Below, in pieces: positions 6,770 to 58,466 of a stretch of DNA of 64,000 nt. Below the pieces are notes generated by a model that was not told where the DNA came from, did not search any database, and was given only the letters and a program-made list of their open reading frames with translations. This stretch comes from Desulfovirgula sp. GTDB lineage: Bacteria > Bacillota > Desulfotomaculia > Desulfotomaculales > Desulfovirgulaceae. Where the stretch lies: positions 1 through 64,000 of the forward strand of contig DYEX01000061.1 of NCBI GenBank assembly GCA_020725525.1, written 5' to 3'. A program made the position numbers and the translations under genes. Position 1 is the stretch's first letter. Each line of letters starts with the position of its first letter.

Positions 6770-6806
6770 TTTCTGAAGGCTGGATTGGAAAGTGGGGAGA
6801 ACGCAG

Positions 6807-8642: not shown

Positions 8643-8651
8643 GCAGCAAGC

Positions 8652-8681
8652 CACCTGCGGGATAATTTAACCCGGCAGGTG
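8652..8681 (+). other. RNA hairpin between fliJ and fliK
   Basis: CACCTGCGGG (8652-8661) can pair with CCCGGCAGGTG (8671-8681) with one bulge. No T-tract follows, so it is probably an RNA-processing or stability element inside the operon transcript and not a terminator. Confidence 0.5.
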
Positions 8682-8786
8682 AAAAGCAGGTTACTGCCGA
8701 CAAGTGCTGCAGTATTTGAGCTACCCGGGGGAGGTGATGGCTGAAAAAGGAGAAGGAAGATTTTAAAAAAAGGAGGTGAAACGATC

Positions 8787-10334: not shown

Positions 10335-10349
10335 AGGTGGGATGTACAG

Positions 10350-10754
10350 ATGGAAGTAAATTCAGCAAGCAGTATCTACTACAATCCGCAGGGCAAATTC
10401 CAGCCGGCCAAAAAGGAACTGGACAGGGACGCCTTTTTACAAATTTTGGTGGCTCAGCTGCGCTACCAGAACCCCATGAGCCCCATGGACCAGGACCAGT
10501 TCATGTCCCAGATGACGCAAATTACGGCCCTGGAGCAGATCATGAACCTCAACAAGAACATGGAGGTGTTGCTGCGGACACAGGAGCTTTCGCTGACTGC
10601 CAATCTGGTCGGCAAGCAGGTGACGGCGGTGGGGGAGGACGGCTGGGACGTTGAGGGAACGGTGGAAAAGCTCATTATTAACGAAAACGGCATCAAACTG
10701 GTGATCAACGGCACTCCCTATGATTATGATACGGTAAAGGAGATCCGGGGTTGA
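10350..10754 (+). CDS. flgD: Flagellar hook capping protein FlgD
   Basis: FlgD caps the growing hook. The 134-residue product contains the conserved N-terminal FlgD region: LDRDAFLQILVAQLRYQNPM and MSQMTQITALEQIMNLN (about residues 27-70). It then has only one short beta-rich segment ending YDYDTVKEIRG, so it is a short Gram-positive form without the larger C-terminal domains of enterobacterial FlgD. AAAGGTGG precedes ATG 10350. The next gene starts one base after its stop. Confidence 0.92.
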   Translation: MEVNSASSIYYNPQGKFQPAKKELDRDAFLQILVAQLRYQNPMSPMDQDQFMSQMTQITALEQIMNLNKNMEVLLRTQELSLTANLVGKQVTAVGEDGWDVEGTVEKLIINENGIKLVINGTPYDYDTVKEIRG

Positions 10755-10755
10755 C

Positions 10756-11148
10756 ATGGACGTCAAAATTCACGGACTTTTGCCTGCACCGTTAACTCTC
10801 CAGGTTTCCCGGGAAGGCCGTCCTGAAAAACAAAACAAGGCATCCCAAACGGGCTCTTTCAGGGAAGTGCTGCGCCGGGAAATGGACGGGGGCCAGCTGA
10901 AACTATCAGCCCATGCCGAAAAACGCCTGCGGGAGCGCAACATCACCCTGAATGAAGCCGACATGGAAAAAATCAGCCGGGCAGTGAGCCTGGCCGCCAG
11001 CAAGGGGGTGAGGAATTCACTGGTTATATACCATGACCTGGCACTGGTAACCAGTGTGCAAAACCGCACGGTAGTAACAGCCCTGGATCGCCACTCCGAA
11101 TCCGGGCGCGTTTTCACCAACATTGACGGGGCAATAATTGTCGAGTAA
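10756..11148 (+). CDS. Flagellar operon protein (TIGR02530 family)
   Basis: A 130-residue cytoplasmic protein of the family known only as flagellar operon protein TIGR02530, found between flgD and flgE in many Firmicutes. The conserved core is LKLSAHAEKRLRERNI (about 50-66), ISRAVSLAASKGVRNSLVIY and the C-terminal RVFTNIDGAIIVE. No catalytic motif is visible. It starts one base after flgD, so translation is probably coupled. Its exact function is not established to my knowledge; a role in hook assembly is inferred from position. Confidence 0.85.
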   Translation: MDVKIHGLLPAPLTLQVSREGRPEKQNKASQTGSFREVLRREMDGGQLKLSAHAEKRLRERNITLNEADMEKISRAVSLAASKGVRNSLVIYHDLALVTSVQNRTVVTALDRHSESGRVFTNIDGAIIVE

Positions 11149-30884: not shown

Positions 30885-32456
30885 ATGGCCAAAGCAACTG
30901 CCACAGCCTCCCGGGCAAATCGCACAAGGGAATTGGCTGCAGTAACGGCGGCTGCCCGCCCCTGGACCTGCCAGGTCGCCTTCTGGGGACTGGCGGCGCT
31001 GCTCTTTTTCCCACCCTTTTTCCGGGGGCTCTTCTTCCCTCCCGAGCAGGAACTGGCCCTGATGAGTGCGGCGGTGGTCTTCTGGTTCACCTGGCTCTGG
31101 AAGCACGGGCGGCGGGATTACAGCTTTTTATCGCACTCCCTGGACTATTTCACCCTGGCCCTGCCTCTGGTGTACGTTATTGCCGCCTTCGGGGCGGTCA
31201 ACTACGGCCTGGCCGTAGACGAGATCGTCAAGAACATCCTGTATTTCCTGGCCTACTGGGTGGCCGTTCAGGTGGTGGAGCGGGAAGAAGACGCCGGCCG
31301 GCTGCTGCATGTCATTTATCTGGCCGCCGCCGGTGTAGCATTGGCCGGTCTCTTCACGGCCACCGGCCTAGTATATATAAAGGACGGTTTTCTAAACGGA
31401 CGGATTTATTCTACCTTCCAGTACCCCAACGCCCTGGCCAGCTACCTGGCCCTGGCAGGCTTCCTGGGGCTGTTCTTCTGGGCGAACTACGGTTCCCGCA
31501 CCGTGGGTGAAAGCATTACCGACCGGACGCTGCTCAAAACCCTGCCCCGGCGCCTGCTGGAATGCCGGCCGTACGGGCATTTTTACGCCGCGGCCAACTT
31601 CATCATCCTGGCCGTGCTCTTCGGCACCAAATCCCGCGGCGGCCTGCTCATCACCGGCGCAGTGTTCGTGCTCTACCTGATCGGGCTGCACTGGCAAAAG
31701 CGGCTGCCGGTACTGCTGCATGCGCTGTATGTGGGCGGCCTTGGTTATATTGCATCCCATAAGTTCATCGCGTCGGCCATGGCCAAACAGATGGGAACGG
31801 CCTGGCTCTGGTTTTCCGGCGGGCTGGCTCTGGTGCTGGCCGGGCAGTGGGCTTATGGCTTTGCGGAAAGGCGCTTTTTATCCCAGTGGTTTGAAAATAA
31901 AAAGCGGGTGAATGTGGCTTTGGCTTCTATAGTAATCGCCTGTTTGATTGCAGGCACGGTGGTGTTGGCTGCACACCCTCAGGCACTGGAGAAGGTGACA
32001 AGCTTTACCTACCTGCGCAATGCCTTTGAACGCGCCTATTTTGTTAAAGATGCCCTGGCCATGATTAAAGACCGCCCCGTTCTGGGCTGGGGGGGCGGCG
32101 GCTGGGAAGAGGCCTACCGGGCCTACCAGGGCTACCTGTACAACTCCAACGAGGTACACAGCCACTACTTCCAGGTGGCCGTGGAGACTGGCATGGTGGG
32201 ACTGCTTGTGATGCTGGGCATCTGGGCCTCCTTCCTGTGTGCCGCCCACCGGGCGTACTGGAGCGCGCCCGCCGGCAGCACCCGCCGGGCCATGGCCTGG
32301 GCCATGACCGCCGGAGCCCTGGCCGTGGGCCTGCACGCAGCAGTTGACTTCGACCTGTCTCTTTCGGCTCTAACACTGGCGTTGTGGACTCTCTTTGCCT
32401 GCGTCAGGGTTTCAGGTTATAATCGAAACAGGGAAATAAGTGTGGAAGGTGAGTGA
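30885..32456 (+). CDS. O-antigen polymerase/ligase family membrane protein
   Basis: A 523-residue integral membrane protein with about 12 hydrophobic segments. The large external loop before the last helices carries the Wzy/WaaL-type pattern: PVLGWGGGGWEEAY, then NEVHSHYFQVAVETGMVGLL, as in O-antigen ligase family (PF04932) proteins. It likely polymerises or transfers a lipid-linked glycan outside the membrane; which of the two cannot be told. It begins the surface-glycan locus 126 bases after the flagellar terminator. AGAAGGAG precedes ATG. Confidence 0.82.
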   Translation: MAKATATASRANRTRELAAVTAAARPWTCQVAFWGLAALLFFPPFFRGLFFPPEQELALMSAAVVFWFTWLWKHGRRDYSFLSHSLDYFTLALPLVYVIAAFGAVNYGLAVDEIVKNILYFLAYWVAVQVVEREEDAGRLLHVIYLAAAGVALAGLFTATGLVYIKDGFLNGRIYSTFQYPNALASYLALAGFLGLFFWANYGSRTVGESITDRTLLKTLPRRLLECRPYGHFYAAANFIILAVLFGTKSRGGLLITGAVFVLYLIGLHWQKRLPVLLHALYVGGLGYIASHKFIASAMAKQMGTAWLWFSGGLALVLAGQWAYGFAERRFLSQWFENKKRVNVALASIVIACLIAGTVVLAAHPQALEKVTSFTYLRNAFERAYFVKDALAMIKDRPVLGWGGGGWEEAYRAYQGYLYNSNEVHSHYFQVAVETGMVGLLVMLGIWASFLCAAHRAYWSAPAGSTRRAMAWAMTAGALAVGLHAAVDFDLSLSALTLALWTLFACVRVSGYNRNREISVEGE

Positions 32457-32781: not shown

Positions 32782-33714
32782 ATGGCTAAAAAAGCTAAAC
32801 GCAAGAAGATCTTACAGGTAACAGGTGAACCTGCTCAAACAACAGTTACCCTAATGCGGCGTGTAAAAAGCGCCAGGAGCCAACCCTCGAAACCAGCCGT
32901 CCTGGCCGCAGCCTCCGTTGTCAGCGCCATAGTGTTCCTTTTTGCTTTCTTCCTGGCCTCTGCCGACAGCTACGCCCGCCAGGCAACCGGATACCTGCAG
33001 CAGGGAAACGTCCAGCAGGGCCTGGCCGCCATGCAAAAGGCAGCCGCTTATAATCCTTTCAATGCCGACTACCATACCGTCCTGATGCGCATTTACCTCA
33101 GTACGGGCAGGCCCCGGCAGGCCCTGGAGGAAGCCCGCCGGGCCGCCGCCCTGAGCCGTTTCAGCGCCGGGCGCCAGGCCGACCTGGCCCGGGCCTCCCT
33201 GGCCGCCGGCAGGTATGCCGGCGCCGTGGCTTACGCCCGCCGGGCAGTGGAACTGGCACCGTACCAGATCGCCTGGTACGAAACTCTGGCCGCCACCTGC
33301 GCTGCCGCCGGCAGGGGTGAACTGCAGGCCGGCAACAGGGATGCCGCCCGCCGGCACCTGGAGGAAGCCCTGAAGGTACCGGAGATGATCCAGGCCCGCG
33401 TGGCGGGGCTGGGGGAAGAAGAGAAGAAGCTCTGGGTAGACGCCCCCATGCTCTCCGTTACGCCCGGAGTACACCTGGGCGTGGGACAGGCCCGGTACCT
33501 GCTGGGCGACCTGCCGGGAGCGGAAAAAAGCCTGCAGGCCGCTCTGCAGGATAATCAGTTGAAAGGAGAAGCGTACCTGTGGCTGGCTCTGGTGAGAGAA
33601 AAGCAGGGTAAAACGGAGGAAGCGAAAAAGCTGGTAAAGGAAGCCGGGCAGATAAACAAAAGTTTTGAAGCGGCTTTTCAGCAGTTGAAGGCAGTTCCGG
33701 CCTTGCAGGGATAA
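32782..33714 (+). CDS. Membrane-anchored TPR protein
   Basis: A 310-residue protein with a Lys/Arg-rich N terminus, a single membrane helix at about 41-61, and tetratricopeptide-type helical repeats outside (for example ATGYLQQGNVQQGLAAMQKA and RYLLGDLPGAEKSLQAALQ). Such proteins often scaffold glycan or envelope machinery. It lies between the polymerase-like gene and the glycan exporter. Specific function not recognised. Confidence 0.75.
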   Translation: MAKKAKRKKILQVTGEPAQTTVTLMRRVKSARSQPSKPAVLAAASVVSAIVFLFAFFLASADSYARQATGYLQQGNVQQGLAAMQKAAAYNPFNADYHTVLMRIYLSTGRPRQALEEARRAAALSRFSAGRQADLARASLAAGRYAGAVAYARRAVELAPYQIAWYETLAATCAAAGRGELQAGNRDAARRHLEEALKVPEMIQARVAGLGEEEKKLWVDAPMLSVTPGVHLGVGQARYLLGDLPGAEKSLQAALQDNQLKGEAYLWLALVREKQGKTEEAKKLVKEAGQINKSFEAAFQQLKAVPALQG

Positions 33715-33733: not shown

Positions 33734-34510
33734 ATGTGTGAGCAGATCAAAGAGATTTACGCCTACAGGGAAATGCTCAGAAATCTGGTGGCCAAAGAGC
33801 TCCGGGCACGCTACAAAGGGTCGGTGCTCGGTTTTTTGTGGACATTCTTCAATCCTCTTCTTATGCTGGTCGTTTATAACGTCGTATTTTCTTTTGTCAT
33901 GCGGGCTCAAATCGAAAATTACGCCATGTTTCTTTTTGTGGCCCTTTTACCCTGGAACTATCTTTCGGTCTCAGTCCTCCAGGGAGCGGCCAGCCTGGTG
34001 CAGAACGGCGCCCTGATTAAAAAAATCTACTTCCCCCGGGAGGTCCTACCCCTCTCGGTGGTCCTGGCCAACCTGGTCAACTACCTGTTAAGCCTTTTAA
34101 TCCTCGTTCCGGCCCTTCTGGCCTTCAAAATTAAGCTCACCGCAGCGCTCCTGGCCTTCCCGGTAGTGCTGCTGGTGGAAACCATGCTGGTGACTTCCCT
34201 GGCCCTCTGTGTTTCGGCGGCCAACGTTTACTTCCGGGATCTGGAGCACATCGTGGGTATTTTGATGACCGTGTGGTTTTTTCTCACCCCCGTGCTCTAC
34301 CCGGTGGACATAATACCGGCGAAAGTGAAGCCCTTTTTCAGCCTCAATCCCGCCACCCCCTTGATGGAAGCCTACCGGGCCATTTTCTTCTACGGCCGCT
34401 GGCCCGACTGGGCGTCCCTGGGCTACCTGGCCGCAGGCCTGGCAGTTCTTTTGACGCTGAGCCTGGTTTTCTTTAACCGGCTGCAGCGCAACATAGCCGA
34501 AGAAATTTAA
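33734..34510 (+). CDS. ABC-2 type glycan exporter permease (Wzm/TagG-like)
   Basis: A 258-residue permease of the ABC-2 family with six membrane helices. Family features are the amphipathic N terminus ending VAKELRARYKGSVLGFLWTF, LIKKIYFPREVLPLSVVLAN, and FFLTPVLYPVDIIP. Together with the following ATPase it should export a lipid-linked polysaccharide or teichoic acid precursor. Gene symbol is left open because Wzm and TagG cannot be told apart here. Confidence 0.9.
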   Translation: MCEQIKEIYAYREMLRNLVAKELRARYKGSVLGFLWTFFNPLLMLVVYNVVFSFVMRAQIENYAMFLFVALLPWNYLSVSVLQGAASLVQNGALIKKIYFPREVLPLSVVLANLVNYLLSLLILVPALLAFKIKLTAALLAFPVVLLVETMLVTSLALCVSAANVYFRDLEHIVGILMTVWFFLTPVLYPVDIIPAKVKPFFSLNPATPLMEAYRAIFFYGRWPDWASLGYLAAGLAVLLTLSLVFFNRLQRNIAEEI

Positions 34511-34525
34511 AGCGGAGGGCATCCC

Positions 34526-35263
34526 GTGGCTGCAGTGGAAGTAGTAAATTTATGGAAAAAATTCCGCATCTACCACGAGCGGGCAATATCCCTCAAGGAG
34601 CGGGTCATCTTCTGGGGCCGGCAGCGCGCCGAAGACTTCTGGGCGCTCAAAAACATAAACCTCACCGTGCCGCGGGGAACAACCGTGGGCCTCATCGGCC
34701 GCAACGGCTCCGGCAAGAGCACCCTTTTAAAAGTAATCAGCCGCATCTTATACCCCACGGAGGGTGAAGTGCGCGTAAAGGGGAGGGTTTCCACCCTGCT
34801 GGAGCTGGGCGCCGGCTTCCACCCCGACTTCACGGGCCGGGAGAACATTTTCTTAAACGCCTCCATCCTCGGCCTGACCCGCAAAGAGATCAAGGAGCGC
34901 CTGGACGACATCATCGCCTTTGCCGAGCTGGGCGACTTCATCGACAACCCGGTACGCAACTATTCCTCGGGCATGTACATGCGGCTGGGCTTTGCCGTGG
35001 CCGTGCACGTGGACCCGGAAATCCTGCTCATCGACGAAGTGCTGGCCGTGGGGGACCTGGCCTTCCAGGAGAAGTGCCTGGCCCGCATCCGGGAACTGCA
35101 GGGGCAGGGGAAGACCATCATCTTCGTCACCCACGCGCCAAAGCAGGTGGCGGAACTGTGCGACCTGGCGGTGTGGCTCGACCGGGGGGAGATAAGGATG
35201 CAGGGCCCGGCCAGGGAAGTGGCCCGGGCGTATGCGGAGTTTATGGGCGGGGCGGCGGGGTGA
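34526..35263 (+). CDS. Glycan exporter ATPase (Wzt/TagH-like)
   Basis: A 245-residue ABC ATPase. It shows the Wzt/TagH-type start (VVNLWKKFRIYHERAISLKE), Walker A GRNGSGKST at 58-66, the signature YSSGMYMRLGF, and Walker B EILLIDEVLAVGD. It lacks the long C-terminal carbohydrate-binding domain of many Wzt proteins, so export is probably not tied to a terminal cap. Start is GTG 34526 after GCGGAGGG, 15 bases after the permease gene. Confidence 0.9.
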   Translation: MAAVEVVNLWKKFRIYHERAISLKERVIFWGRQRAEDFWALKNINLTVPRGTTVGLIGRNGSGKSTLLKVISRILYPTEGEVRVKGRVSTLLELGAGFHPDFTGRENIFLNASILGLTRKEIKERLDDIIAFAELGDFIDNPVRNYSSGMYMRLGFAVAVHVDPEILLIDEVLAVGDLAFQEKCLARIRELQGQGKTIIFVTHAPKQVAELCDLAVWLDRGEIRMQGPAREVARAYAEFMGGAAG

Positions 35264-35328: not shown

Positions 35329-35374
35329 TTTTATCTATTTTCGGGTGGGGGAAAATGGTAGGAGGAACTATCCC

Positions 35375-36550
35375 TTGCTAAGGATTTGCGGTGCCGTCAT
35401 CTTGGCGGCGGTTGATTGGAATTTCCTGCGGCAGCGGGTGCACCACCTGGCCGCCGGCATGGCACAGATGGGGCTTAAAGTTTTGTTTGTAGAAAATACT
35501 GCCGTACGGTCTCCGCGTCTCTCGGATCTGCCGCGCATCCTACAACGGCTGCAAGTGGCATTTATCCGTCCAGCCGACAAATGTGGAGAACCGGTGCCCG
35601 AAAATCTGGCGGTTTACTCGCCTCTGGCCGCACCCTGGCCCTACAATACAGCGGCGGTGGCCTGGAATTACGCCCTTTTGAAGCGGCGCGTGCAGAGGTT
35701 TCTGGAAGAGGAAAAGCTGCGGCCGGAGGAAGTATTGTTGCTCACTTATCTCGCCACGCCGCTGGTGCTACACCTGATCGAGTCCTTTCCCTGGGCACGT
35801 GTGGTTTACGATGTGGTGAGCGACCCGAAACAGGTGGAACCGCGCCTTGCACCCTTCGAAGGGCGGCTTTTACGGCGGGCGGACGTTACGCTTTTCGCTT
35901 CCGCGACACTGCTGGAGCAATACCGGGACCACACCAAAAACCCGGTCCTGTTCCGCGACGGCTTCAACACAGAACTTCTGGAGGCCGAGGTGGAAATACC
36001 GCCTGATGTAGCTCGTCTACCGCGTCCGCGCCTGGTGTATATAGGCGGTATCAACCGGAAGCTGTGGGTGGAAGCCATCGCGGCGCTGTGTGAGGCGGTT
36101 CCCCACGGTTCCGTCATCCTGATGGGGCCCGTGGCCCACGGCGAAGTAGTGCTTCCTAAGTTGCCCAACCTTCACCTACTACCGCCTCGCCGTCGATATA
36201 TTGAACTGGCCGGGGTCTTGCGAGCTGCCGATGTGGGGCTTATTCCCTACCGTTCCGACCCTTACGCGGGCGCCATGCACCCGGCCAAGCTTAATGAGTA
36301 CCTGGTCTTCGGGCTGCCGGTGGTGGCCACGGCCACGCCGGAGCTGCAACGACTGGCGCAAGAGTGGCCGAAAGTCGCTGTATATTTGGCACGAACAGCA
36401 AAAGAATTTCAAGAAGTTACCGTAAAAGCCATATCGCGATGCTGTACTGAAGCCCAGGTGAAGAATTATACGACAATTAGTGACAATAACTGGCCTCAGC
36501 GTGTAAGAAATGTTTTCGTCATATTGGACTGTTTTGGATGCAAGGATTAA
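35375..36550 (+). CDS. GT-B fold glycosyltransferase
   Basis: A 391-residue cytoplasmic glycosyltransferase with two Rossmann-like halves. The N-terminal half has LAGMAQMGLKVLFVENT; the C-terminal half has RLVYIGGINRKL, a nucleotide-sugar site LRAADVGLIPYRSDPYAGAM followed by the PAKLNEYLVFGLPVVATATPE motif of group-1 enzymes. TTG 35375 is chosen since TAGGAGGA lies 9 bases upstream; a GTG at 35345 lacks such a site. Codon use turns AT-rich in the last 60 codons, and the end may be a recombination joint. Confidence 0.82.
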   Translation: MLRICGAVILAAVDWNFLRQRVHHLAAGMAQMGLKVLFVENTAVRSPRLSDLPRILQRLQVAFIRPADKCGEPVPENLAVYSPLAAPWPYNTAAVAWNYALLKRRVQRFLEEEKLRPEEVLLLTYLATPLVLHLIESFPWARVVYDVVSDPKQVEPRLAPFEGRLLRRADVTLFASATLLEQYRDHTKNPVLFRDGFNTELLEAEVEIPPDVARLPRPRLVYIGGINRKLWVEAIAALCEAVPHGSVILMGPVAHGEVVLPKLPNLHLLPPRRRYIELAGVLRAADVGLIPYRSDPYAGAMHPAKLNEYLVFGLPVVATATPELQRLAQEWPKVAVYLARTAKEFQEVTVKAISRCCTEAQVKNYTTISDNNWPQRVRNVFVILDCFGCKD

Positions 36551-36566
36551 TGAAAGGGATGAAAGG

Positions 36567-39500
36567 ATGAAAAAAGTAGGCATTTTGTACGATAACATTA
36601 GTGGAAACATTGGTGATCAGGCGATTGGCATAAGTTTAAGAAAAATGCTAAGAAAAATAGGAGTGGAGTTTGAGGAGCTGGTACCAGGTCGGTTTCATCC
36701 GAAAGATTATCAAACGATAATTATTGGTGGTGGCTATCTTCTGCAACCGAGCCCAAATTTTTTCTACGACAAGTTTAGAGTAGCCGGTCCCCATATCCTT
36801 AACGCTTGTGGTATAGTTGGTTTCCCGGATGACCTACAGTACCTAAACGATTATCTTTATGTATCCGTTAGGAGCAGTGGGGACAAGCATAAGCTTTATT
36901 ATCTCACAAAAGAAGTTAAAGTAGTACCCTGTACCACTATGCTTCTTGACGATTTGGTAGAGATTGACCTACGAATCCATAAACCGTCAGTTGGCGTTCA
37001 GTTATGGGATGGAATAATTGATGAAGAGTTATTGGCACAATTTTTATCAACCCAACCTTATCACGTTTATTTTTTACCGATAACTCATTACAACCATGAT
37101 TTCAAGTATCTCGGGAGGCTCAGCCAGAAAGTAAAGAATGCTACGTTGCTTCCGATTTTGACACCTGAAGAGGTTTTTACTATCATAGGCAAACTCAATT
37201 ATCTCATAACTGCTTCCCTTCATGGGGCTATTTTTGCGTATGTGCATAATGTTCCTTTCGCCTTGTGCGGCGGTCAAGATAAGCTAGTCTTTTTTATGCA
37301 AGACAGAAACCTAGATGCTTATCTGTTTAACAACTTTGATGAACTGAAGTCTACCTTTGAGGTCCTCCAGAATAATCCTCCTGATTATTCCGAAAGCCTG
37401 GAAAGAGACCTTAAAACATTAAAGGAACATCAAGGTATAATTAAGGATAACTTATATAAGAACTACTTTATGCCAGCAATGCAAATTGAAACGGGTGTCT
37501 TTGAAGATGCCTATCATGATGTGCTAGCAAAGTTACAGCAAAGGAACTTTCAAATTCACTATCTGCAAAAGCAAGTAGAGGCTCTTGATGTCCAAGCTAA
37601 AAGCTTGGGGTTTCGCTTAAAAGAAAAGGAAGCTCAAGTAAAAAGTTTGGAGGAGAATTTGGCACAGCTGAGAAATCAGCTGGCCCAAAGGGAGCAAGAA
37701 CACGCTGCCGAGAAGGAGCGCCTATGCTCTAGGATAACCGAAAATGAGCGGACTATTGCACAGCTTGAAGAAACTCTCAATCAACTAAGAAAACAGCTGG
37801 TAGAAAAGGATACCGAAATACTCTTGATTCGTAGTTCGCTTGGGTGGTTTCTTATCGCGCGGTATCGGAGGTTTGCAGACAAGTTATTCCCATCGGGAAC
37901 GAGGCGTCGGATAATCTTCGAATTAAGCCAGAAAGCTTTAAAAGTACTGATAACCGCGGGACCGATAGTTCTCGTCAAAAAAATAAAAAATTGGCTGGTA
38001 TTTGCCAGGCATAAAAAGGCAAAAAATCATGGTTTTTCTGAGAGGAAAGGAGAACAAACATTACTTACGGATGATTTTACCCCCTTTGCTCTGCCTGAGG
38101 TTAGTCACCCAAAAGCTTCCATTATTATTCCAGTATTCAATAAGTGGCTTTACACGTACAACTGTCTAAGGTCGATTGCTCAAAATACCGAAGGGGTGCC
38201 CTACGAAGTTATTGTAGTTGACAACGCGTCTCAAGATGAAACCAGGACCTGGCTGGACCGTATTGAGCGCGTAAGGGTAATCAGAAATTCCAAAAACGAT
38301 GGTTTCGTAACGGGTTGTAACAGAGGAAGTCAAGCTGCGCGTGGGGAATATTTAGTTTTCTTAAATAATGACGTAGTAGTAAAACCCGGGTGGCTTTCTG
38401 AACTCATACGCACCTTTGAGTCCGATGCGAGCATTGGCTTGGTAGGGGCAAAACTACTATATCCGGACGGTTCCTTGCAGGAAGCAGGCGGGATAATATG
38501 GAACGATGGGACCGGTTGGAATTACGGCAGAGGAGATCAGTCCAACAAGCCCGAGTATAACTTTCTGCGAGAAGTAGACTATTGCTCTGGGGCTTGCCTG
38601 GCTGTAAAAAGGGAGGTATTTGAAGCCTTAGGTGGTTTCGATGTACGCTACCAACCTGCGTACTATGAGGACTCCGACCTTTGCTTCGCCGCGAGAAATT
38701 TGGGCCTTAAAGTCGTGTATCAGCCAAAGGTAGAAGTAATTCACTTTGAAGGTGTCACCGCGGGTCGAGATGAGTCTCAGGGTGTCAAAGCATTTCAGGC
38801 TATAAACCGTCCAAAGTTTGTGGACAAGTGGCGTGAGGTGCTCCAGCAACACCACTGGCCGCCGGAAGCGAGCCTGGTTTGGCGGGCGCGACGATGGGGG
38901 AAAAAGCCAGAAGTGTTAATTGTGGATCACTATGTACCTGAATGGGACAAGGATTCAGGCTCTTTTCGCATGCGGCAAATAATCGAGCTTTTTAATGAGT
39001 TGGGATGGAATATTACATTTTACCCGGACAACTTATCTAGGCTTGAACCTTACACGTCTGATTTGCAACAATTGGGCGTTGAAGTTATTTACGGTGCCAC
39101 TACATTTGAGTTATTTATAAAAGAACGCGCGAATCAGTTTGATCTTATAATATTATGCAGACCGGATGTATCTTTTAACAAGATAGACATTATTCGTCAT
39201 TTCTCACCCAAAACTAAGATAGTTTATGATACCGTTGATCTCCACTTCATTAGGGAGGCGCGTCGGGCCGCTGTAGAACATAGTGAAGATGCTCGTTTAT
39301 CGGCCGAACGATACAAAGCTATCGAAATATATCTTGCGAAGACTGCCGACATGACTCTTGTAGTTACGAAGGAAGAACAACAACGACTGCTTGAAATTGA
39401 TTCAGCACTCAATGTCAGCGTAATACCAAATATTCATCCTACCCCAGAACAAGAGTTCAGAGATTTTGAAACACGGTCAGGTGTGCTCTTTCTGGGTAGC

Positions 39501-40076
39501 TATATGCATCCCCCTAATGTGGACGGTGTCAAATGGTTCGTTGTAGAGATATGGCCTCTCATTCGGCGCGAGCTCCAGGATGTAGAGTTTTACGTTATTG
39601 GTAGTAATGTGCCGGAAGAAATTAAGCGTTTAAAAAAGATTACCGGTGTTCGTGTTGTGGGCTGGGTACCTGACGTTGCTCCGTGGTTTGATAAATGTCG
39701 CATCTTCGTTAGTCCCCTACGGTATGGTGCCGGCATGAAGGGCAAGATAGGCCACGCCATGAGCTACGGACTACCGGTGGTGACTACTACGATAGGGGCG
39801 GAGGGGATGGACCTGATAGACGGCGAGACCGCTGTTATAAGAGATGATCCTGAGGAGTTTGCAAAGGCAGTTGTTGAATTGTATCGGTCGAGGATCTTGT
39901 GGAAGAAACTCAGTCGGAAAAGCATCGAGCATATAGAGGCAAACTATTCGCCGCGAGCCGTACTATCGAAATTGAATTCCGTGTTACAAAGATTGGGGCT
40001 CCCCACCAACGTGTCGCTCTTGGAAGGCATATCTGAGGTAAAGGTTCGACATATTCAGGTTGGTCAAGCTAAATAA
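36567..40076 (+). CDS. Three-enzyme fusion: pyruvyltransferase, GT2 and GT4
   Basis: A 1,169-residue protein with four parts. Residues 1-300: polysaccharide pyruvyl transferase domain (NISGNIGDQAIG, IIIGGGYLLQ, LITASLHGAIFAYVHNVPFA). About 313-425: a long coiled coil. About 513-755: a GT-A glycosyltransferase of family 2 (SIIIPVFNKW, FLNNDVVV with the metal site, YYEDSDLCFAARNLG). About 777-1141: a GT-B glycosyltransferase (FVSPLRYGAGMKGKIGHAMSYG). It probably adds two sugars and a pyruvyl ketal to the exported glycan. ATG 36567 follows AAAGGGA. AT-rich codon use differs from the flagellar region. Confidence 0.85.
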   Translation: MKKVGILYDNISGNIGDQAIGISLRKMLRKIGVEFEELVPGRFHPKDYQTIIIGGGYLLQPSPNFFYDKFRVAGPHILNACGIVGFPDDLQYLNDYLYVSVRSSGDKHKLYYLTKEVKVVPCTTMLLDDLVEIDLRIHKPSVGVQLWDGIIDEELLAQFLSTQPYHVYFLPITHYNHDFKYLGRLSQKVKNATLLPILTPEEVFTIIGKLNYLITASLHGAIFAYVHNVPFALCGGQDKLVFFMQDRNLDAYLFNNFDELKSTFEVLQNNPPDYSESLERDLKTLKEHQGIIKDNLYKNYFMPAMQIETGVFEDAYHDVLAKLQQRNFQIHYLQKQVEALDVQAKSLGFRLKEKEAQVKSLEENLAQLRNQLAQREQEHAAEKERLCSRITENERTIAQLEETLNQLRKQLVEKDTEILLIRSSLGWFLIARYRRFADKLFPSGTRRRIIFELSQKALKVLITAGPIVLVKKIKNWLVFARHKKAKNHGFSERKGEQTLLTDDFTPFALPEVSHPKASIIIPVFNKWLYTYNCLRSIAQNTEGVPYEVIVVDNASQDETRTWLDRIERVRVIRNSKNDGFVTGCNRGSQAARGEYLVFLNNDVVVKPGWLSELIRTFESDASIGLVGAKLLYPDGSLQEAGGIIWNDGTGWNYGRGDQSNKPEYNFLREVDYCSGACLAVKREVFEALGGFDVRYQPAYYEDSDLCFAARNLGLKVVYQPKVEVIHFEGVTAGRDESQGVKAFQAINRPKFVDKWREVLQQHHWPPEASLVWRARRWGKKPEVLIVDHYVPEWDKDSGSFRMRQIIELFNELGWNITFYPDNLSRLEPYTSDLQQLGVEVIYGATTFELFIKERANQFDLIILCRPDVSFNKIDIIRHFSPKTKIVYDTVDLHFIREARRAAVEHSEDARLSAERYKAIEIYLAKTADMTLVVTKEEQQRLLEIDSALNVSVIPNIHPTPEQEFRDFETRSGVLFLGSYMHPPNVDGVKWFVVEIWPLIRRELQDVEFYVIGSNVPEEIKRLKKITGVRVVGWVPDVAPWFDKCRIFVSPLRYGAGMKGKIGHAMSYGLPVVTTTIGAEGMDLIDGETAVIRDDPEEFAKAVVELYRSRILWKKLSRKSIEHIEANYSPRAVLSKLNSVLQRLGLPTNVSLLEGISEVKVRHIQVGQAK

Positions 40077-41249: not shown

Positions 41250-42848
41250 ATGCGTAGGAAACACTCAATTTTGATGTTGGTAATCTGTACTATAACCTTC
41301 GGATTTTTATCTTTATTGCTTGGTCAAGACGCAAATTGGGATCTAAGGAATTACCATTTCTATAACGGATATGCAATTATAACTGGTCGGACTTTCAAGG
41401 ATTACATTCCGGCTCAACTCCAGACCTTTTTCAACCCTGTGTTAGATATTTTTCATTATTTTCTTATCAGTAATTTCCCGCCAAAGCTTGTTGGCTTCAT
41501 CTTAGGCGGGGTACAGGGGATAAACTGGTATCTTCTCTTCATCATCGCCTTTTTAGTTCTTCCACTCCGGCCTATCTTGAAATGGATTGTTTCATTTTCA
41601 TGTGCCTTTCTCGGTATGTATGGGCCTACTGCTATTTCAGAACTCGGTACTACAATGGGGGATTTGACTCTCTCGCCTTTTGTCTTAGGTGGTTTGTATT
41701 TATTGCTTAAGTTGAATTTCAACCCACCAGACGAACCTAAAACGCTGTCGCGCTGGGTTCTCTTCTCGGGTTTTCTTTTTGGTTGTGCTGCAGGGATAAA
41801 ACTGGCCTTTGCGCCCTACGCCCTTGCTGGAGCAATAGCGTTTCTAATTGTATGTGGGAAGATCTCCTCATCCAGAAATATCTTTGTATCTTCAAAGAGT
41901 TTTTGTCTATTTATGGTAGGCATTGCTTTGGGATTTGCTTTAACGGGTGGTTTCTGGATGGCTTTCCTATACGTTCACTTTAAAAACCCATTTTTCCCTT
42001 TTTTCAACCAGATATTTAGATCCCCCTATGCTCTTCCTATATCTTGTCAGGACCTTCGTTGGCTACCCAAAACCGTTGGAGAATACCTGATGCTCCCGTT
42101 CTCCTTTGTTGGCCTAGGACCTCACAAAATCTTGGAATTACCTTTCAAAGCAATCAGGTTTCCACTAACGATAGCGCTAGCGCTAATCTATGTTACGATG
42201 TTAGCCTGGTATTTCATACGCAAAAGAGATCGTACCACACCTGCTGAGTTAAATTTTCTATTGGCTTTTTTTATTACGTCCCTGGTAACTTGGGCTGCGG
42301 TCTTCTCATATTACCGTTACCTTGCTCCACTAGAATTACTAGCCCCATTCCTCATAGTGCTTCTAATACTTCACATAATCTCCACCTCAGCATTCAGGTT
42401 CTTTTTAGTGACCCTTGTATTCTGCCTGATGATTGGCACTATGAAAGCCCCGAACTGGGGCCGTCTACCGTGGTGCGATTCTAATTACTTTGGAACATCC
42501 GTTCCGGCGATTCCAGGCTTAGAAAACGGCATGGTAATAATGACGTCGTACTCGCCAACTGCATTCGTTGTTCCTTCGTTCCCTCGCGAGACCCGCTTTG
42601 TCCGGGTACAAAGCAATTTTGATGGTGCGGCTTCAGAAAGGTGGCAACAGGAAGTTAAAGAAGTCCTTGTAGCTCACTCCGGACCATTCTTTTTGCTTAC
42701 TACGAAAGAAAGCTTTCAAGAGGCCCCTGGTATTCTAAAACGATACGATCTTGCGATAATCAAGGGAAGCTGCGTTGAAATACATAATTATCTGGAGCCG
42801 ATTATACTATGTAAGTTAAAGAGGTTTGGTTCAAACGAACGAGAGTAA
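41250..42848 (+). CDS. Multi-pass membrane protein, GT-C-like
   Basis: A 532-residue protein with about ten membrane segments. The first external loop has DANWDLRNYHFYNGYAI, with an Asp pattern like that of lipid-dependent GT-C glycosyltransferases, and ends with a soluble domain of about 110 residues. It stands in the glycan locus directly before a GT2 gene. A role in transferring a sugar from a polyprenyl-phosphate donor is inferred. Codon use is AT-rich. ATG follows CGGAGGAAA at 9 bases. Confidence 0.6.
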   Translation: MRRKHSILMLVICTITFGFLSLLLGQDANWDLRNYHFYNGYAIITGRTFKDYIPAQLQTFFNPVLDIFHYFLISNFPPKLVGFILGGVQGINWYLLFIIAFLVLPLRPILKWIVSFSCAFLGMYGPTAISELGTTMGDLTLSPFVLGGLYLLLKLNFNPPDEPKTLSRWVLFSGFLFGCAAGIKLAFAPYALAGAIAFLIVCGKISSSRNIFVSSKSFCLFMVGIALGFALTGGFWMAFLYVHFKNPFFPFFNQIFRSPYALPISCQDLRWLPKTVGEYLMLPFSFVGLGPHKILELPFKAIRFPLTIALALIYVTMLAWYFIRKRDRTTPAELNFLLAFFITSLVTWAAVFSYYRYLAPLELLAPFLIVLLILHIISTSAFRFFLVTLVFCLMIGTMKAPNWGRLPWCDSNYFGTSVPAIPGLENGMVIMTSYSPTAFVVPSFPRETRFVRVQSNFDGAASERWQQEVKEVLVAHSGPFFLLTTKESFQEAPGILKRYDLAIIKGSCVEIHNYLEPIILCKLKRFGSNERE

Positions 42849-42875
42849 AGCACCAAATAAGGCGAGGTGATCCTA

Positions 42876-44093
42876 ATGCCACAAATATCCGTAATAATTC
42901 CAGCTTACAACGAAGAAGCAGGTATTAGCGCTACGCTAGAGGAGGTTAGGGAGGTTCTCGCTGGAAAATCAGCGGAAATCATCGTAGTGGACGACGGTTC
43001 TACGGACAAAACGGCAGAACTTGCACAAGATCTATCTGATAAAGTAATTAGACACGTCACGAACCGTGGTAAAGGGGCGGCAATGCGGACCGGTTTCGAA
43101 GCGGCCAATGGGGAATATATAATTTTTTTGGATGCTGACGGGACCTACCCGGCTATGTTTATCCCAGCGATAGTCCAAAAGTTGGATGAAGTGGACGCGG
43201 TATTTACATACCGCACAAACAGGGAGCATATACCTCTTCTCAATCAGTTTGGTAACTGGTTAATAACAAGGTTAATTAAGAAGTTTTCTGGCTTCACGGG
43301 TAACGATCCTCTGTCAGGGTTATACGGTTTAAGGCGTAACGTGTTAAAGGCAATAAGTTTAGAATCTTCTACCTTTGCCATCGAAACTGAAATCGTGGTA
43401 AAAATAAGCAGAATGCGATTTACCACTGCAGAGATTCCAATAACTTACCGTCCCCGCCTTGGAGAGAGCAAATTACGCCCCCTTCGGGATGGGTGGCGGA
43501 TACTGCGGGTTCTAGTTGATTTACTATTTATCTTCCAGCCCTTTTTAACTTTTATTCTGCCTGGGTTAATTATTGCTGCAACAGGACTATGCCTTGCCGG
43601 TGCCCTTGCCATCAAAGGGACCATCTATTTCGACCACGTCCGGTTAAGCCTACATACCTTCTTAACTAGTTTGGCCCTTATGCTTCTCGGTACCAGTACA
43701 TCTGCTTATGGCGTTATAATTGACCTTTACGCGGTACGCCACCGGTTTAAAAAACCGTCGCGGGTCACGCGCATGCTTACTAACCTTGCTCTTTATAAGA
43801 ATATACGCAACCTCAGCTTGTTTCTTTTGTGTATCAGCATACCAACTTTAGGCTACCACTTCATTCGTTGGGCGGGCGGTGGATTCGGGCCTTTCGTGGC
43901 TACCAAAAGTTGGATGCTCTCACTAACCGGGCTTCTTCTGGGACTACAAGGGGTTTACACCAGTATTACCGGTAGGATTTTTGCTAAAGATTGCTTGGAT
44001 GTGGATGTTTTTGGAGGAGTGGTGGACAATCTGGGATCGACTGATTACCAATATACGGTATGCGAAGGTAAAAAGGTTAATACCTCCCGGTAG
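42876..44093 (+). CDS. Family 2 glycosyltransferase with membrane tail (DPM1-like)
   Basis: A 405-residue protein. Residues 1-220 form a GT-A domain of dolichyl-phosphate mannose synthase type: SVIIPAYNEEAGI, EIIVVDDGSTDKT, YIIFLDADGTYP and TEIVVKISRMRF. Four hydrophobic segments follow. It would load a sugar onto a polyprenyl phosphate, a donor suited to the GT-C-like protein encoded upstream. ATG 42876 has GCGAGGTG 7 bases upstream. Its 3' end overlaps the damaged methyltransferase by about 90 bases, unusual and perhaps itself due to a frameshift. Confidence 0.82.
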   Translation: MPQISVIIPAYNEEAGISATLEEVREVLAGKSAEIIVVDDGSTDKTAELAQDLSDKVIRHVTNRGKGAAMRTGFEAANGEYIIFLDADGTYPAMFIPAIVQKLDEVDAVFTYRTNREHIPLLNQFGNWLITRLIKKFSGFTGNDPLSGLYGLRRNVLKAISLESSTFAIETEIVVKISRMRFTTAEIPITYRPRLGESKLRPLRDGWRILRVLVDLLFIFQPFLTFILPGLIIAATGLCLAGALAIKGTIYFDHVRLSLHTFLTSLALMLLGTSTSAYGVIIDLYAVRHRFKKPSRVTRMLTNLALYKNIRNLSLFLLCISIPTLGYHFIRWAGGGFGPFVATKSWMLSLTGLLLGLQGVYTSITGRIFAKDCLDVDVFGGVVDNLGSTDYQYTVCEGKKVNTSR

Positions 44094-47298: not shown

Positions 47299-48696
47299 TT
47301 GCCGAAGATATCTCCTTTCTTAAACCCCTCCATCTTCCGGGAATACGACATCCGGGGCGTGGCCGGAAAAGACTTAACCTTTGAAACTGCCCGTACCCTG
47401 GGAAAAGCCTTCGGCACCTATCTTTTAGAACAGGGCTTAAGGGAAGTGCTGGTGGGCCGGGACAACCGGGCCAGCTCCGGAGAATTGCGAAACGGAATTT
47501 GCGATGGGCTTTTATCAACGGGATGTGATGTTATTGATCTGGGCCTGGTGGTTACCCCCATCGTATATTTCGCCCGTTACCACCTGGGCGTGAAAGGCGC
47601 TGTGATGGTCACCGGCAGCCACAACCCGCCGGAGGAAAACGGATTTAAGCTCGCTGCGGGCGGCGCGGAAACGATTTACGGGAAAGAAATCCAGAGGCTT
47701 AGGGAGATTTGTTCGCTCGGTTCTTTTGCAACCGGGAGGGGGAAAATTAAAACTGCTGACGTTGTTCCCGCCTACCTGGATGCGCTGGCCGGTAAAATTA
47801 AGCTTGGTCCCCGCCAGTTAAAAGTGGTCGTGGACTGCGGCAGCGGTACGGCGGGCTTTTTCGCGCCGCAGCTCTTGCGCCGCTGGGGTTGTAACGTGAT
47901 AGAGCTTTATTGTACTCCCGACCCGGCCTTTCCCCACCACCACCCCGACCCGGTAAAAACGGCCAACCTCCTCGATTTGCAGAAGAAAGTTCTTGAGGAG
48001 GGGGCAGACCTGGGCGTGGCCTACGACGGGGATGCCGACCGCCTGGGGGTTGTGGACGACCGGGGGAACGTGGTCTGGGGAGACAAACTGATGATCCTCT
48101 TCTGGCGTGAAATTCTTCCCCGTTTTCCCGGTGCCCCGGTGCTGGTGGAAGTCAAGTGCTCCCAGAGCCTGGTGGAGGAGGCCGCCCGCCTGGGGGGGAA
48201 GCCCGTTTTTTCCCGCACCGGGCACTCCCTGATCAAGGCCAGAATGCGGGAACTTAACGCCCCCTTCACAGGGGAAATGTCCGGCCACATGTTTTTCGCC
48301 GACGAATATTACGGCTACGACGATGCACTATATGCCACCGGGAGGCTTTTGCGTATTTTATCAAATACGGAAAAACCTCTTTCTCTGCTTTTGGCCGGCG
48401 TGCCGCAATATTACTCCACGGCGGAGACGCGCGTACCCTGTCCGGACGAGGTTAAATTTGCCGTTGTAGAGCAACTTGTTAAGGAGTTTCAGCGCCAGTT
48501 CGAAGTTATTGACGTGGACGGTGCCCGGGTACTGTTTAAGGACGGGTGGGGACTTGTGCGCGCTTCCAACACGCAGCCCGTGCTGGTGGCCCGCTGCGAG
48601 GCGAGGACGCCGGAAGGATTGCAGAGGATCTGCGATCTAATGAAAAAAGCAATTACCGCCCAACCCCAGGTGGGAGATTTCGAGTGGGAGTTTTAG
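47299..48696 (+). CDS. manB: Phosphomannomutase/phosphoglucomutase
   Basis: A 465-residue alpha-D-phosphohexomutase. It interconverts hexose 6- and 1-phosphates, giving mannose 1-phosphate for GDP-mannose. All four active-site loops are present: the phosphoserine loop TGSHNPPEENGFK (Ser107), the metal loop DGDADR (243-248), the sugar loop GEMSGH, and the phosphate loop RASNTQP. Start is TTG 47299 with AAGGAGGCG 9 bases upstream. It is followed by manC, so the pair supplies GDP-mannose to the glycosyltransferases here. Choice between mannose and glucose substrate rests on that context. Confidence 0.9.
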   Translation: MPKISPFLNPSIFREYDIRGVAGKDLTFETARTLGKAFGTYLLEQGLREVLVGRDNRASSGELRNGICDGLLSTGCDVIDLGLVVTPIVYFARYHLGVKGAVMVTGSHNPPEENGFKLAAGGAETIYGKEIQRLREICSLGSFATGRGKIKTADVVPAYLDALAGKIKLGPRQLKVVVDCGSGTAGFFAPQLLRRWGCNVIELYCTPDPAFPHHHPDPVKTANLLDLQKKVLEEGADLGVAYDGDADRLGVVDDRGNVVWGDKLMILFWREILPRFPGAPVLVEVKCSQSLVEEAARLGGKPVFSRTGHSLIKARMRELNAPFTGEMSGHMFFADEYYGYDDALYATGRLLRILSNTEKPLSLLLAGVPQYYSTAETRVPCPDEVKFAVVEQLVKEFQRQFEVIDVDGARVLFKDGWGLVRASNTQPVLVARCEARTPEGLQRICDLMKKAITAQPQVGDFEWEF

Positions 48697-48838
48697 CGGG
48701 AAACAAAGAAGAATAGATTTCCGGCAGGAAGTTAATCCGGTTACCTCAGTAGCCAGGAACGCACTGGTTACCGTTAGGAAAACAGTTCGGTCAGCCGGGA
48801 AAATCTGGTTGGCTACTTCTGATGGGGGGGATGTGTTT

Positions 48839-49912
48839 TTGTTTTATGCCGTAATTATGGCCGGTGGGGCGGGGGAGCGCTTCTGGCCCCTCTCCCGGCG
48901 GGATAGACCCAAGCAGTTCCTCTCCCTGGTGGGGGAACGCACCATGCTGCAGCTTACCTTTGACCGGCTGGCAGGGTTGGTACCGCCGGAGAATGTGCTG
49001 GTCATTACCGGTGTCAATTATATCGAAACCGTGCGCCGGCAGTTGCCGGAGATTCCTCCGGAAAACATTGTGGCCGAACCGTGTGGCCGGGATACGGCGG
49101 CGGCCGTAGGGCTGGGAGCCCTCCATGTTTTGCGAAAGGATCCCCGGGGGGTAATGGTGGTGCTGCCGGCTGATCACTACATTGCCCATGTGCGGCGGTT
49201 TCAATCGGTGCTGCAGGCGGGAGTATCCCTGGCGGCCGGTGGGCGGTGGCTGATAACCATGGGCATTACCCCCACCCGGCCGGACACGGGATACGGGTAC
49301 ATATGCCAGGGCGAGCTGCTCGAATACCATGAAGGCATACCAGTTTACCGGGTGGAAAGGTTTACGGAAAAACCGGGGCCGGAAAAAGCCCGGCAGTTTC
49401 TGGCTTCAGGCCGCTACCTGTGGAACAGCGGGATGTTTATCTGGCGGGCTGATTTAATCTACCGGTTGATTGAAGAACACCTGCCGGCCCTGGCGGCCGG
49501 GCTGGCGGAAATAGGGCGGGCCATGGACCGCAGCTCCTGTCAGGAAGTCTTATCCCGTGTATATCCCCGCCTGGCGAAGGTTTCCATTGATTACGGGGTC
49601 ATGGAAAAGGCCCCCAACGTGCTGGTCCTGCCGGGTGACTTCGGCTGGGACGACGTGGGTTCCTGGCCGGCCCTGGAGCGGTGCCGGGAGACGGAAGAAA
49701 ACGGCAACGTGATCGAGGCGCGGGGGGTTTTTCTGGAAACCCGCAACAGCATCATCCATGCCCCCGGCAGGCTGGTGGCCACCCTGGGGGTGGAGAACCT
49801 GGTAGTGGTGGACGACGGGGAGTGCCTGCTGGTGTGCCGTAAAGACCGCGCCCAGGAGCTGAAGCGTCTCACCGCCGCCCTCAAAGAAGCAGGTCTCGAA
49901 CATGCTTTATAG
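48839..49912 (+). CDS. manC: Mannose-1-phosphate guanylyltransferase
   Basis: A 357-residue nucleotidyltransferase making GDP-mannose from mannose 1-phosphate and GTP. It starts MFYAVIMAGGAGERFWPLSR with the GGxGxR loop (9-14) and Lys25 in DRPKQFLSL, then AEPCGRDTAAAVG, VLPADHYI, FTEKPGPEKA and WDDVGSWPALE. It lacks the C-terminal cupin isomerase domain of bifunctional enzymes. TTG 48839 is chosen from the purine-rich GATGGGGGGG 8 bases upstream. A decayed copy of its 5' part lies at 45846. Confidence 0.92.
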   Translation: MFYAVIMAGGAGERFWPLSRRDRPKQFLSLVGERTMLQLTFDRLAGLVPPENVLVITGVNYIETVRRQLPEIPPENIVAEPCGRDTAAAVGLGALHVLRKDPRGVMVVLPADHYIAHVRRFQSVLQAGVSLAAGGRWLITMGITPTRPDTGYGYICQGELLEYHEGIPVYRVERFTEKPGPEKARQFLASGRYLWNSGMFIWRADLIYRLIEEHLPALAAGLAEIGRAMDRSSCQEVLSRVYPRLAKVSIDYGVMEKAPNVLVLPGDFGWDDVGSWPALERCRETEENGNVIEARGVFLETRNSIIHAPGRLVATLGVENLVVVDDGECLLVCRKDRAQELKRLTAALKEAGLEHAL

Positions 49913-51370: not shown

Positions 51371-52798
51371 ATGAAAAAATTTTTGCGTCTTTTAAAACCA
51401 CTTTTTCCCTGGCTTCTGGCGCTCGGGGACGCCCTGGGGGTCCTGGGCGGCTATTACCTGGCCTTTATCCTTCGCTTTGGCGGCGTGCTGCCGCCCGAAA
51501 ACTGGCAGGCCTTTCTGCAGGCGCTTCCTGGCATCGGGGCAGTTACGTGGGGGATCTTCGGTACCCTGGGGCTGTACCAGAGGAGTTACAACGGCTTCAT
51601 GCCCGTGCTGCGTGCGGTTTTAACCGGCGTGGCGGGCGTGGCTGTGGCTGCCATGGCTCTCACCTTCTGGCTGCGGGGTTTTGCCTTTCCCCGCAGCGTT
51701 TTGCTGCTGGCGCCGCCCATCCAGGCGGGGCTGATCTGCCTGTGGCGCTGCCTCTTCTGGCATCTCGAACACCGGATCTACGGCCGGCGGGAGCTGCTGG
51801 TGGTGGGGCCGCCGGAGGAGGCCGCAGAAATCCTGGGCAAGGTGCTGGAACTGCCCCGGGGGTGGTTCAGGGTACGCCGGGTGCTGGCGCCGGGGGAACT
51901 GGGAGAATTAAAGAAATGGCTGCCCGCGGTGGATGCCGTGCTGGTGGTGCCCTCCCTCTCCCGGGAGGACAAGGCCGGGGTGGTCGGTGCCTGCCTCAAG
52001 GCCCGCCGGGAGGTCTTCCTGGTGCCGGATTTGTACGACATTTTGTTGATCCGGGCCAGCCTGACCCAGCTGGACGACCTGCCGGTGGTGGAGGTGCAGG
52101 ATATCCGCCTCACCTGGCCGCAGCGGGTGACCAAGCGCGCGATGGATGTGGTGGTGGCGGGTTTGGGTTTGATTCTGGCGGCTCCGGTAATGGCTCTTTG
52201 TGCCCTGGCCGTAGCCGTCACTTCTCCCGGCCCCGTTTTTTACACCCAGGAGCGGACGGGTTTCCGGGGCAAGACCTTCCGGGTCTACAAGTTTCGCACC
52301 ATGATCCAGGATGCGGAAAAACAGACCGGGCCGGTACTGGCAGGAGAGAAGGACCCCCGTATCACTCCGGTGGGCCGCATCCTGAGGGCCACCAGATTGG
52401 ATGAGTTGCCACAGCTGTTCAATGTGCTCAAGGGGGATATGAGCCTGGTAGGTCCCCGGCCCGAACGTCCTTTCTTCGTTAAACAGTTTGCGAGCGAAAT
52501 ACCCGATTATCACTACCGCCACCTGGTAAAACCCGGGCTTACCGGCCTGGCCCAGGTCCACGGCAAGTACACCACTTCCGCGGCGGACAAGCTCCGCTAT
52601 GATCTCTACTACATCCGGAACTATTCCCTGCTCCTGGATCTGAAGATCTTGCTGCAGACCATCCCTGTCATCCTGGGGGGTGAGGCGGCCCGGGGACAAA
52701 GCGAAGCGGACCCGGAAAAGCGCGCCGCGATCCATGCCCTGGTGAACGGTCAGCAGGAAGCAGCACCGGAGAACCGGGGGCAGCAATCTGCCTGGTAA
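51371..52798 (+). CDS. Undecaprenyl-phosphate sugar phosphotransferase (WcaJ-like)
   Basis: A 475-residue polyprenol phosphate sugar-1-phosphate transferase that begins glycan assembly on undecaprenyl phosphate. It has four N-terminal membrane helices, a central NAD-like domain (about 125-230), a re-entrant hydrophobic helix ([20 protein letters not shown]) and the catalytic C-terminal domain with [24 protein letters not shown] and [10 protein letters not shown]. The sugar is not predictable. No strong ribosome site is seen before ATG. Confidence 0.93.
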
Positions 52799-57252: not shown

Positions 57253-58455
57253 ATGTGTGGAGTACCGAAGCAATTATTAGCCCGGCTTGTCCTTGGGCTG
57301 CTTATCTTTCATCTAATCGTTCCTTCTCCCGCCTGGGCCGCCCAAGAGCTGACCGTCTATTCCCCGGCCGAACAGAAGGGGAAACCGGCGCAGTTTATCT
57401 GGCAGTTGTCCGGGGTGGGCCGCCTTTCGGGGGACATAATGGTTGGCCCCAACGGCCTTTTATACCTCCCCGTAGGCAACAAACTGGCGGCGGTGGACAC
57501 CCGGGGGCGGGTGGTCTGGGAGGCGGCCGGTCCGGCGGGAGGAAGGATGGGCCGGCCGGTTTTCGGTCCCGCCGGTTCTATTTTTTTACCGGGGAGTACC
57601 GTGGTGCAGGAAATAAAAATGAACGGGGCGGCGGGATGGAGTTTCAGTGCCTTCCAGGGTTCCACGGCATCCGGGCCTGCCTGGTTGTCTTCAGGTCCGC
57701 GGGGTTACCTTTACCTGCCCCTGCCTGCGGCATTGTACGCCGTGGACACCATTGGCCGGTATAAATGGGCGTTATTACACTGGGATGCCGGCGACCTGTA
57801 CCGGGCCGTCCCCCTTAAAGACCGGGCAATTGACGGTTGTGCCGGCGACGACCGGGCGGTATACGTGGTTTGCAGCCGCAGGCAGGCCGGATCGACCTTG
57901 CTGGCTGTGGACGGTGCCGGGAAAATCCTCTGGCGTTACTGGCTGGGAGAGATAAAGGAGGTCCACCTGGTTCCGGGGGGCGACGGCGTTCTCTATGTAA
58001 CGGTAAATCCGTCGAAACTCGACAGGTTGAACAAAGGGAAGGTTTATGCTTTCCGGCTGGAAGACAACGGCCGGCCCGCCTGGAGCCAGACCATATCCTT
58101 CGACGACCTGACCGCTCCGGTTTTTTCCCCGGATAAAACCCTTTATTTCACTGCCGGTGGACGCATTTATGCCCTGGATGCGCAAACCGGGCAGCAAAAA
58201 TGGTATCAGCCGCTCTTGAATCTGGTTTCAGCCCCGGCGGTGGACGGCAGGCGGAACAGGATTTATGCCGGAACTTCCGACAAACGCCTGCTGGCGGTCG
58301 GCACCGGAGGGCGGTTGCTCTGGGAATTGGAGCTGGACGGGGCCGTCGACAGGCCGCCGCTTGTGGGCCCGGACGGTTACCTGTATGTAGTCACCGGCAA
58401 AGGGAGTTTGTACAAAATACTGGATGCCGGCAACCCCTGGCGCCTGTTCAAGTAG
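57253..58455 (+). CDS. Secreted PQQ-type beta-propeller protein
   Basis: A 400-residue exported protein. A signal peptide with AWA cleavage site occupies residues 1-29 or so. The rest has at least six PQQ/BamB-like blades, each with a G-x-LY-x-hydrophobic-AVD pattern (NGLLYLPVGNKLAAVDTRG, KTLYFTAGGRIYALDAQTG, DGYLYVVTGKGSLYKI). It probably works as a surface scaffold with the SLH protein encoded 11 bases downstream. ATG 57253 follows AAAGGTGG at 7 bases. Confidence 0.85.
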   Translation: MCGVPKQLLARLVLGLLIFHLIVPSPAWAAQELTVYSPAEQKGKPAQFIWQLSGVGRLSGDIMVGPNGLLYLPVGNKLAAVDTRGRVVWEAAGPAGGRMGRPVFGPAGSIFLPGSTVVQEIKMNGAAGWSFSAFQGSTASGPAWLSSGPRGYLYLPLPAALYAVDTIGRYKWALLHWDAGDLYRAVPLKDRAIDGCAGDDRAVYVVCSRRQAGSTLLAVDGAGKILWRYWLGEIKEVHLVPGGDGVLYVTVNPSKLDRLNKGKVYAFRLEDNGRPAWSQTISFDDLTAPVFSPDKTLYFTAGGRIYALDAQTGQQKWYQPLLNLVSAPAVDGRRNRIYAGTSDKRLLAVGTGGRLLWELELDGAVDRPPLVGPDGYLYVVTGKGSLYKILDAGNPWRLFK

Positions 58456-58466
58456 GTGTTCCTGAT

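Follow-up and report, generated by a model that had tools for sequence, protein, structure and literature searches.

What could a single polypeptide that joins a pyruvyltransferase, a long coiled coil and two different glycosyltransferases (GTs) be doing in Desulfovirgula sp.? The gene for such a protein lies on the forward strand at positions 36567..40076 of the window (the whole 64,000-nucleotide stretch of DNA that was analyzed), and its 1,169-residue product is ordered as pyruvyltransferase, coiled coil, amphipathic segment, GT2, and GT4. The original prediction of this chain allowed for a hidden frameshift that would make the parts separate genes. This can be ruled out, as all domains share one frame that is open over 36510–40076 with zero internal stops across 1,169 codons, and as a second locus (L084, described below) shows the identical domain order in one frame of its own. 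The ATG start codon at 36567 comes straight after the stop codon of the preceding gene, with a Shine–Dalgarno sequence (AAAGGG, 36553–36558) 8 nt upstream. Pfam searches matched all three of the families proposed for checking well above their cut-offs, namely PS_pyruv_trans (PF04230, residues 14–234, E 2.7e-20, 73.8 bits vs a cut-off of 25.3), Glycos_transf_2 (PF00535, residues 518–688, E 2.3e-30, 106 bits, above the curated cut-off), and Glyco_trans_1_4 (PF13692, residues 972–1107, E 2.7e-29, 103 bits, likewise above it), and transmembrane prediction returned zero segments for the fusion protein. The predicted composition of the chain is thus borne out.

The part that separates the enzymes is a long helix or coiled coil (37500..37886, + strand, residues 312–440), assigned from heptad scoring and a low-confidence model. 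The heptad score of segment 312–426 is 0.66, compared to a 95th percentile of 0.52 in same-residue shuffles, and AlphaFold, whose model from a three-row alignment serves just for the helix and the GT4 part, gives residues 312–440 as one helix (~129 residues) at low confidence. If helical throughout, this segment would measure ~190 Å, close to the ~200 Å given for the WbdD coiled coil (PMC5082667), which we count in favor of a ruler-type reading. Directly after the coiled coil follows a basic amphipathic segment (37851..38012, +, residues 429–482), with a hydrophobic moment of 0.63 at residues 429–446, which ranks highest in the fusion protein, and with helices at 446–464 and 466–482 in the AlphaFold model. 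This segment is a module common to several relatives, and membrane contact is a possible role for it.

In the characterized polymerase-terminators, the polymerase lies close to the membrane and the distal end of the coiled coil bears the terminator; how long the coiled coil is determines how long the chain becomes (PMC11231755, PMC5082667). The fusion has the same layout, with a terminator-type enzyme and polymerase GTs at opposite ends of the coiled coil. WbbB of Klebsiella pneumoniae O12 and Raoultella terrigena likewise unites in one polypeptide a terminator at the N-terminus, a coiled coil as ruler, and a pair of polymerase GTs at the C-terminus and is ABC transporter-dependent, as in the fusion locus (PMC11231755), but its terminator is a Kdo transferase, its GTs belong to other families, and its proven system exports terminated chains only. 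ORF6 of K. pneumoniae O7 also has an N-terminal modifier, a central coiled coil, and two C-terminal GT modules (PMC11231755), although the terminator is a methyltransferase-kinase and both GT modules are GT2, rather than GT2 and GT4. WsaE, from the S-layer glycan system of Geobacillus stearothermophilus, carries an N-terminal capping enzyme and two GTs, and its gene lies downstream of wzm/wzt in a cluster with a Wzy_C ligase and a TPR protein; in contrast to the fusion, it uses a methyltransferase cap, methylation in vitro is independent of chain length, and a coiled coil goes unmentioned in the portion of the source available to us (PMC2943079, for all of these points). The original suggestion that the architecture is undescribed therefore holds for the pyruvyltransferase fusion itself, as the literature searched described no chain that unites a pyruvyltransferase with a polymerase, but not for its kind, which is known from WbbB, O7 ORF6, and WsaE. 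Among the proven coiled-coil terminators, the group added is methyl, methylphosphate, or Kdo. The overall design is thus already known, and the pyruvyltransferase as its capping module is a variation on it.

The residues of the N-terminal domain (36606..37268, +, residues 14–234, from Pfam and alignment with CsaB) bear on how far it could act as such a module; the AlphaFold model of this domain (pLDDT 20–35) is useless. In an alignment with CsaB proteins of related genomes, N14-x-G16-D17 of the fusion falls on the NxGD motif, and R102, H219, and K239 fall on R148, H308, and K328 of Paenibacillus alvei CsaB, whose numbers were placed on the alignment by inference from motifs. The roles of the CsaB residues in PEP binding have been described (PMC10435577), the R and H motifs are conserved throughout the pyruvyltransferase family (PMC10629545), and we count the retention of the PEP-binding R, H, and K in favor of pyruvyl capping. 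The position of CsaB R306 is a serine in the fusion, the R207 region is without arginine such that the equivalent of R207 is, from the alignment, probably not basic, and the residue four past R102 is D106 and not Ser or Thr. Two arginines that CsaB relies on are missing, and this, together with the divergence from CsaB, would fit a degenerate domain in which the pyruvyltransferase fold has become a non-catalytic acceptor-binding or scaffold module; we consider this very improbable, given the strong PF04230 match and the retained NxGD motif, R102, H219, and K239. A sequence search of the PDB with this domain gave no relevant match, and close relatives of it were found neither in 113 genomes of the class and 398 of the phylum nor among plasmids or viral contigs; a scan of genome contigs gave matches to the GT2–GT4 part only.

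CsaB makes the pyruvate to which SLH domains bind. The original prediction had placed the fusion in this context, citing an SLH protein in the same window, and that protein is indeed encoded at 58200–60131. Since many polymers contain pyruvylated repeats, the fusion might accordingly build and pyruvylate each repeat of a wall polymer, possibly making SLH-binding sites. The domain shares its Pfam family (PF04230) and part of its PEP-binding residues with CsaB, but CsaB is a stand-alone SCWP enzyme for SLH anchoring, of which a true copy lies elsewhere in the same genome. This separate CsaB (G000:C178:16934-17926, L063) scores 298.5 bits against TIGR03609, the CsaB equivalog model with a cut-off of 213.1, whereas the fusion domain reaches 35.1 bits. 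We therefore rejected the fusion as a CsaB orthologue with a role in the SLH epitope. As the genome encodes a separate bona fide CsaB, SLH anchoring is explained without the fusion, and the proposed link between the two is left unsupported. A long spacer between modifier and GT would, furthermore, be odd for a per-repeat modification, and other fusions carry typical capping enzymes at the equivalent place, so that we regard pyruvylation of every repeat as improbable. That one chain both builds and pyruvylates a glycan nonetheless stays plausible and fits the polymerase-terminators; it is end capping, rather than modification of every wall-polymer repeat, that provides the better parallel. At least one gene of the pyruvyltransferase family is present in 24 of the 26 genomes searched. 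A further locus (L076, 217–2559) holds a 781-residue open frame in which ~400 residues without a Pfam match precede a CsaB-type pyruvyltransferase.

Turning to the C-terminal half, the GT2 domain (38118..38630, +, residues 518–688) contains the motifs LNND and YYED, and the GT4-type domain (38904..39992, +, residues about 780–1142, from Pfam and Foldseek) has a GT-B fold for which Foldseek finds MshA, BshA, PimB', and other GT4 enzymes. The classical EX7E motif is absent from the GT4 part: in PLRYGAGMKGKIGHAMSYGLP, the first E is missing and H replaces the second, a deviation that is partly common to the relatives in the alignments. Elsewhere in the same genome (G000:C144:34062-36012, L050), a further GT4 and, behind it, a GT2 are encoded by genes of their own, the GT2 being 53% identical to the GT2 domain of the fusion; this cluster is kept within the genus, with its two GTs as separate genes.

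The neighborhood points to export of the product by an ABC transporter. Upstream of the fusion, and all on the + strand, lie a WsaB-like membrane protein of the Wzy_C O-antigen ligase/O-oligosaccharyltransferase type (30885..32456), a TPR protein between this ligase-like gene and the exporter (32782..33714, cf. WsaA), a Wzm-like ABC-2 permease (33734..34510, 33% identical to the permease beside L084), and a Wzt-like ABC ATPase of 245 residues (34526..35263, 49% identical to its L084 counterpart), such that wzm and wzt together occupy 33734–35263 of the fusion locus. A weak, TuaH-like GT4-like glycosyltransferase (35345..36550, +) is the sole ORF between wzt and the fusion. In S-layer glycan (slg) clusters, the gene for the multidomain repeat-unit enzyme comes downstream of wzm/wzt, either immediately or after one intervening ORF, and a TPR protein accompanies the ligase-like protein, which contains Wzy_C (PMC2943079); the order in the window (ligase, TPR, wzm, wzt, one ORF, multidomain enzyme) is the same. 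Downstream, again on the + strand, follow a multi-pass membrane protein of 532 residues without a Pfam match (41250..42848), perhaps a GT-C type enzyme, and a GT2 glycosyltransferase (42867..44093), both in the same cassette as the fusion, then phosphomannomutase and mannose-1-phosphate guanylyltransferase-like genes (47299..49912), possibly for GDP-mannose supply, and a polyprenyl glycosylphosphotransferase for chain initiation (51371..52798). Genes for an LPG_synthase_TM protein and a GT4 are also found downstream.

The GC content is ~0.45 over 36 kb to 44 kb, compared to 0.55–0.62 in the surroundings, and other genomes of the family keep the ligase-TPR-wzm block (wzm 97%, 85%, and 66% identical) while the cassettes behind it differ. 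The fusion therefore belongs to a variable glycan cassette, which was probably imported. At a further locus (L095, 4933–6974), an IS607-like resolvase and a TnpB-like protein are inserted right behind wzt, at the border between the conserved exporter and the variable cassette. In another genus of the family (L096, 13409–16327), a Wzt with a Wzt_C domain is followed by a 521-residue methyltransferase protein, and thus the type of Wzt varies with the cassette.

Among the 398 genomes of the phylum, eight further genomes carry a near-complete GT2–GT4 tandem, with varied N-terminal partners. Beside wzm/wzt, the tandem is joined through a coiled coil to a methyltransferase (L081, L082) or a sulfotransferase (L053), and L084 (3614–7579, − strand, 1,322 residues) begins with a pyruvyltransferase (PF04230, 2.6e-27) and a coiled coil, also beside wzm/wzt. 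Three methyltransferase forms are without a coiled coil (L080, L085, L086), with no wzm/wzt within the stretch read, and two of these (L085, L086) sit among flagellar genes, in flagellar islands. One tandem is without an N-terminal enzyme (L083); at 5500–11062 of that locus it adjoins a NeuB-like gene and a wzt whose product includes Wzt_C, and the cap might there be a nonulosonic acid. The partners of this one tandem thus include methyltransferase, sulfotransferase, and pyruvyltransferase domains, so that across the GT2–GT4 fusions of the phylum the capping module is swapped while the design stays constant. The pyruvyltransferase domains of the fusion and of L084 are just 23% identical across 181 residues (E 0.004), and searches turned up close relatives of neither domain in its own group, which suggests, from sequence comparison, that the two were probably recruited separately. 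We note that L084 has an extra domain without a Pfam match at residues ~370–500, between the pyruvyltransferase and the coiled coil, which could be a carbohydrate-binding module standing in for the missing Wzt_C.

In proven ruler systems of the O8/O9a type, Wzt_C couples capping to export. The Wzt in the window has ABC_tran only, without the Wzt_C carbohydrate-binding domain (PF14524), and Wzt_C is absent from both pyruvyl loci and present in the methyl- and sulfo-fusion loci, the numbers being small. This speaks against cap-gated export, and it leaves room for a pyruvyltransferase that only decorates chain ends, with the balance of synthesis and export setting the length and the coiled coil merely oligomerizing the complex. 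Such is the precedent of WbbZ in Klebsiella pneumoniae O1, a pyruvyltransferase that acts at the non-reducing chain end alongside an ABC transporter without a carbohydrate-binding module, as at the fusion locus, and in this system, likewise without Wzt_C, the terminal pyruvate does not determine chain length (PMC10629545). WbbZ, however, stands alone as a protein, has no coiled coil, and is dispensable for chain length (PMC10629545), whereas the long coiled coil of the fusion is placed right where it parts the modifier from the polymerase, as proven rulers have it; we thus consider a cap without a ruler rather unlikely, while taking it seriously.

Pyruvylation of the chain terminus by WbbZ nevertheless stops polymerization in vitro (PMC10629545), and this, together with the polymerase-terminator layout, leads us to favor, with moderate confidence, the fusion as a self-contained pyruvyl-capping polymerase-terminator of an ABC-exported surface glycan. 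Against this reading count the absence of Wzt_C from the exporter, the loss of CsaB R306, and probably of R207, the useless model of the N-terminal domain, and the lack of a canonical EX7E motif in the GT4 part. In the mechanism we propose, the amphipathic segment would hold the C-terminal GT2 and GT4 domains at the membrane, where they would extend a polyprenyl-linked chain, while the coiled coil would keep the pyruvyltransferase at a distance from them. Once long enough, the growing chain would reach the pyruvyltransferase, and PEP-dependent ketal-pyruvylation of its non-reducing end would block further extension. The adjacent Wzm/Wzt would then export the finished glycan, and the Wzy_C ligase would probably transfer it to a protein, be it an S-layer protein, flagellin, or another surface protein.

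Pyruvate as a chain terminator and length regulator has been proposed, in one sentence and without proof, for two proteobacteria (PMC10629545), which belong to a different phylum and for which that proposal gives no architecture. Against this background of a terminator so far merely suggested, the fusion and the probably independent L084 are compact candidates, in which use of the donor PEP, cap, ruler, and polymerase would all reside in one chain, and they raise the question of whether a ruler needs a cap-reading exporter. We suggest tentatively, and with more doubt than confidence, that a ketal-pyruvyl cap serves as the ruler-controlled stop signal of a single-chain polymerase in a lineage that also has SLH proteins and CsaB. 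Such a polymerase would have been put together independently two or more times within a single phylum, and its partner would be an exporter without a cap-reading domain. If this is true, a coiled coil would control chain length with no tie to cap-gated export.
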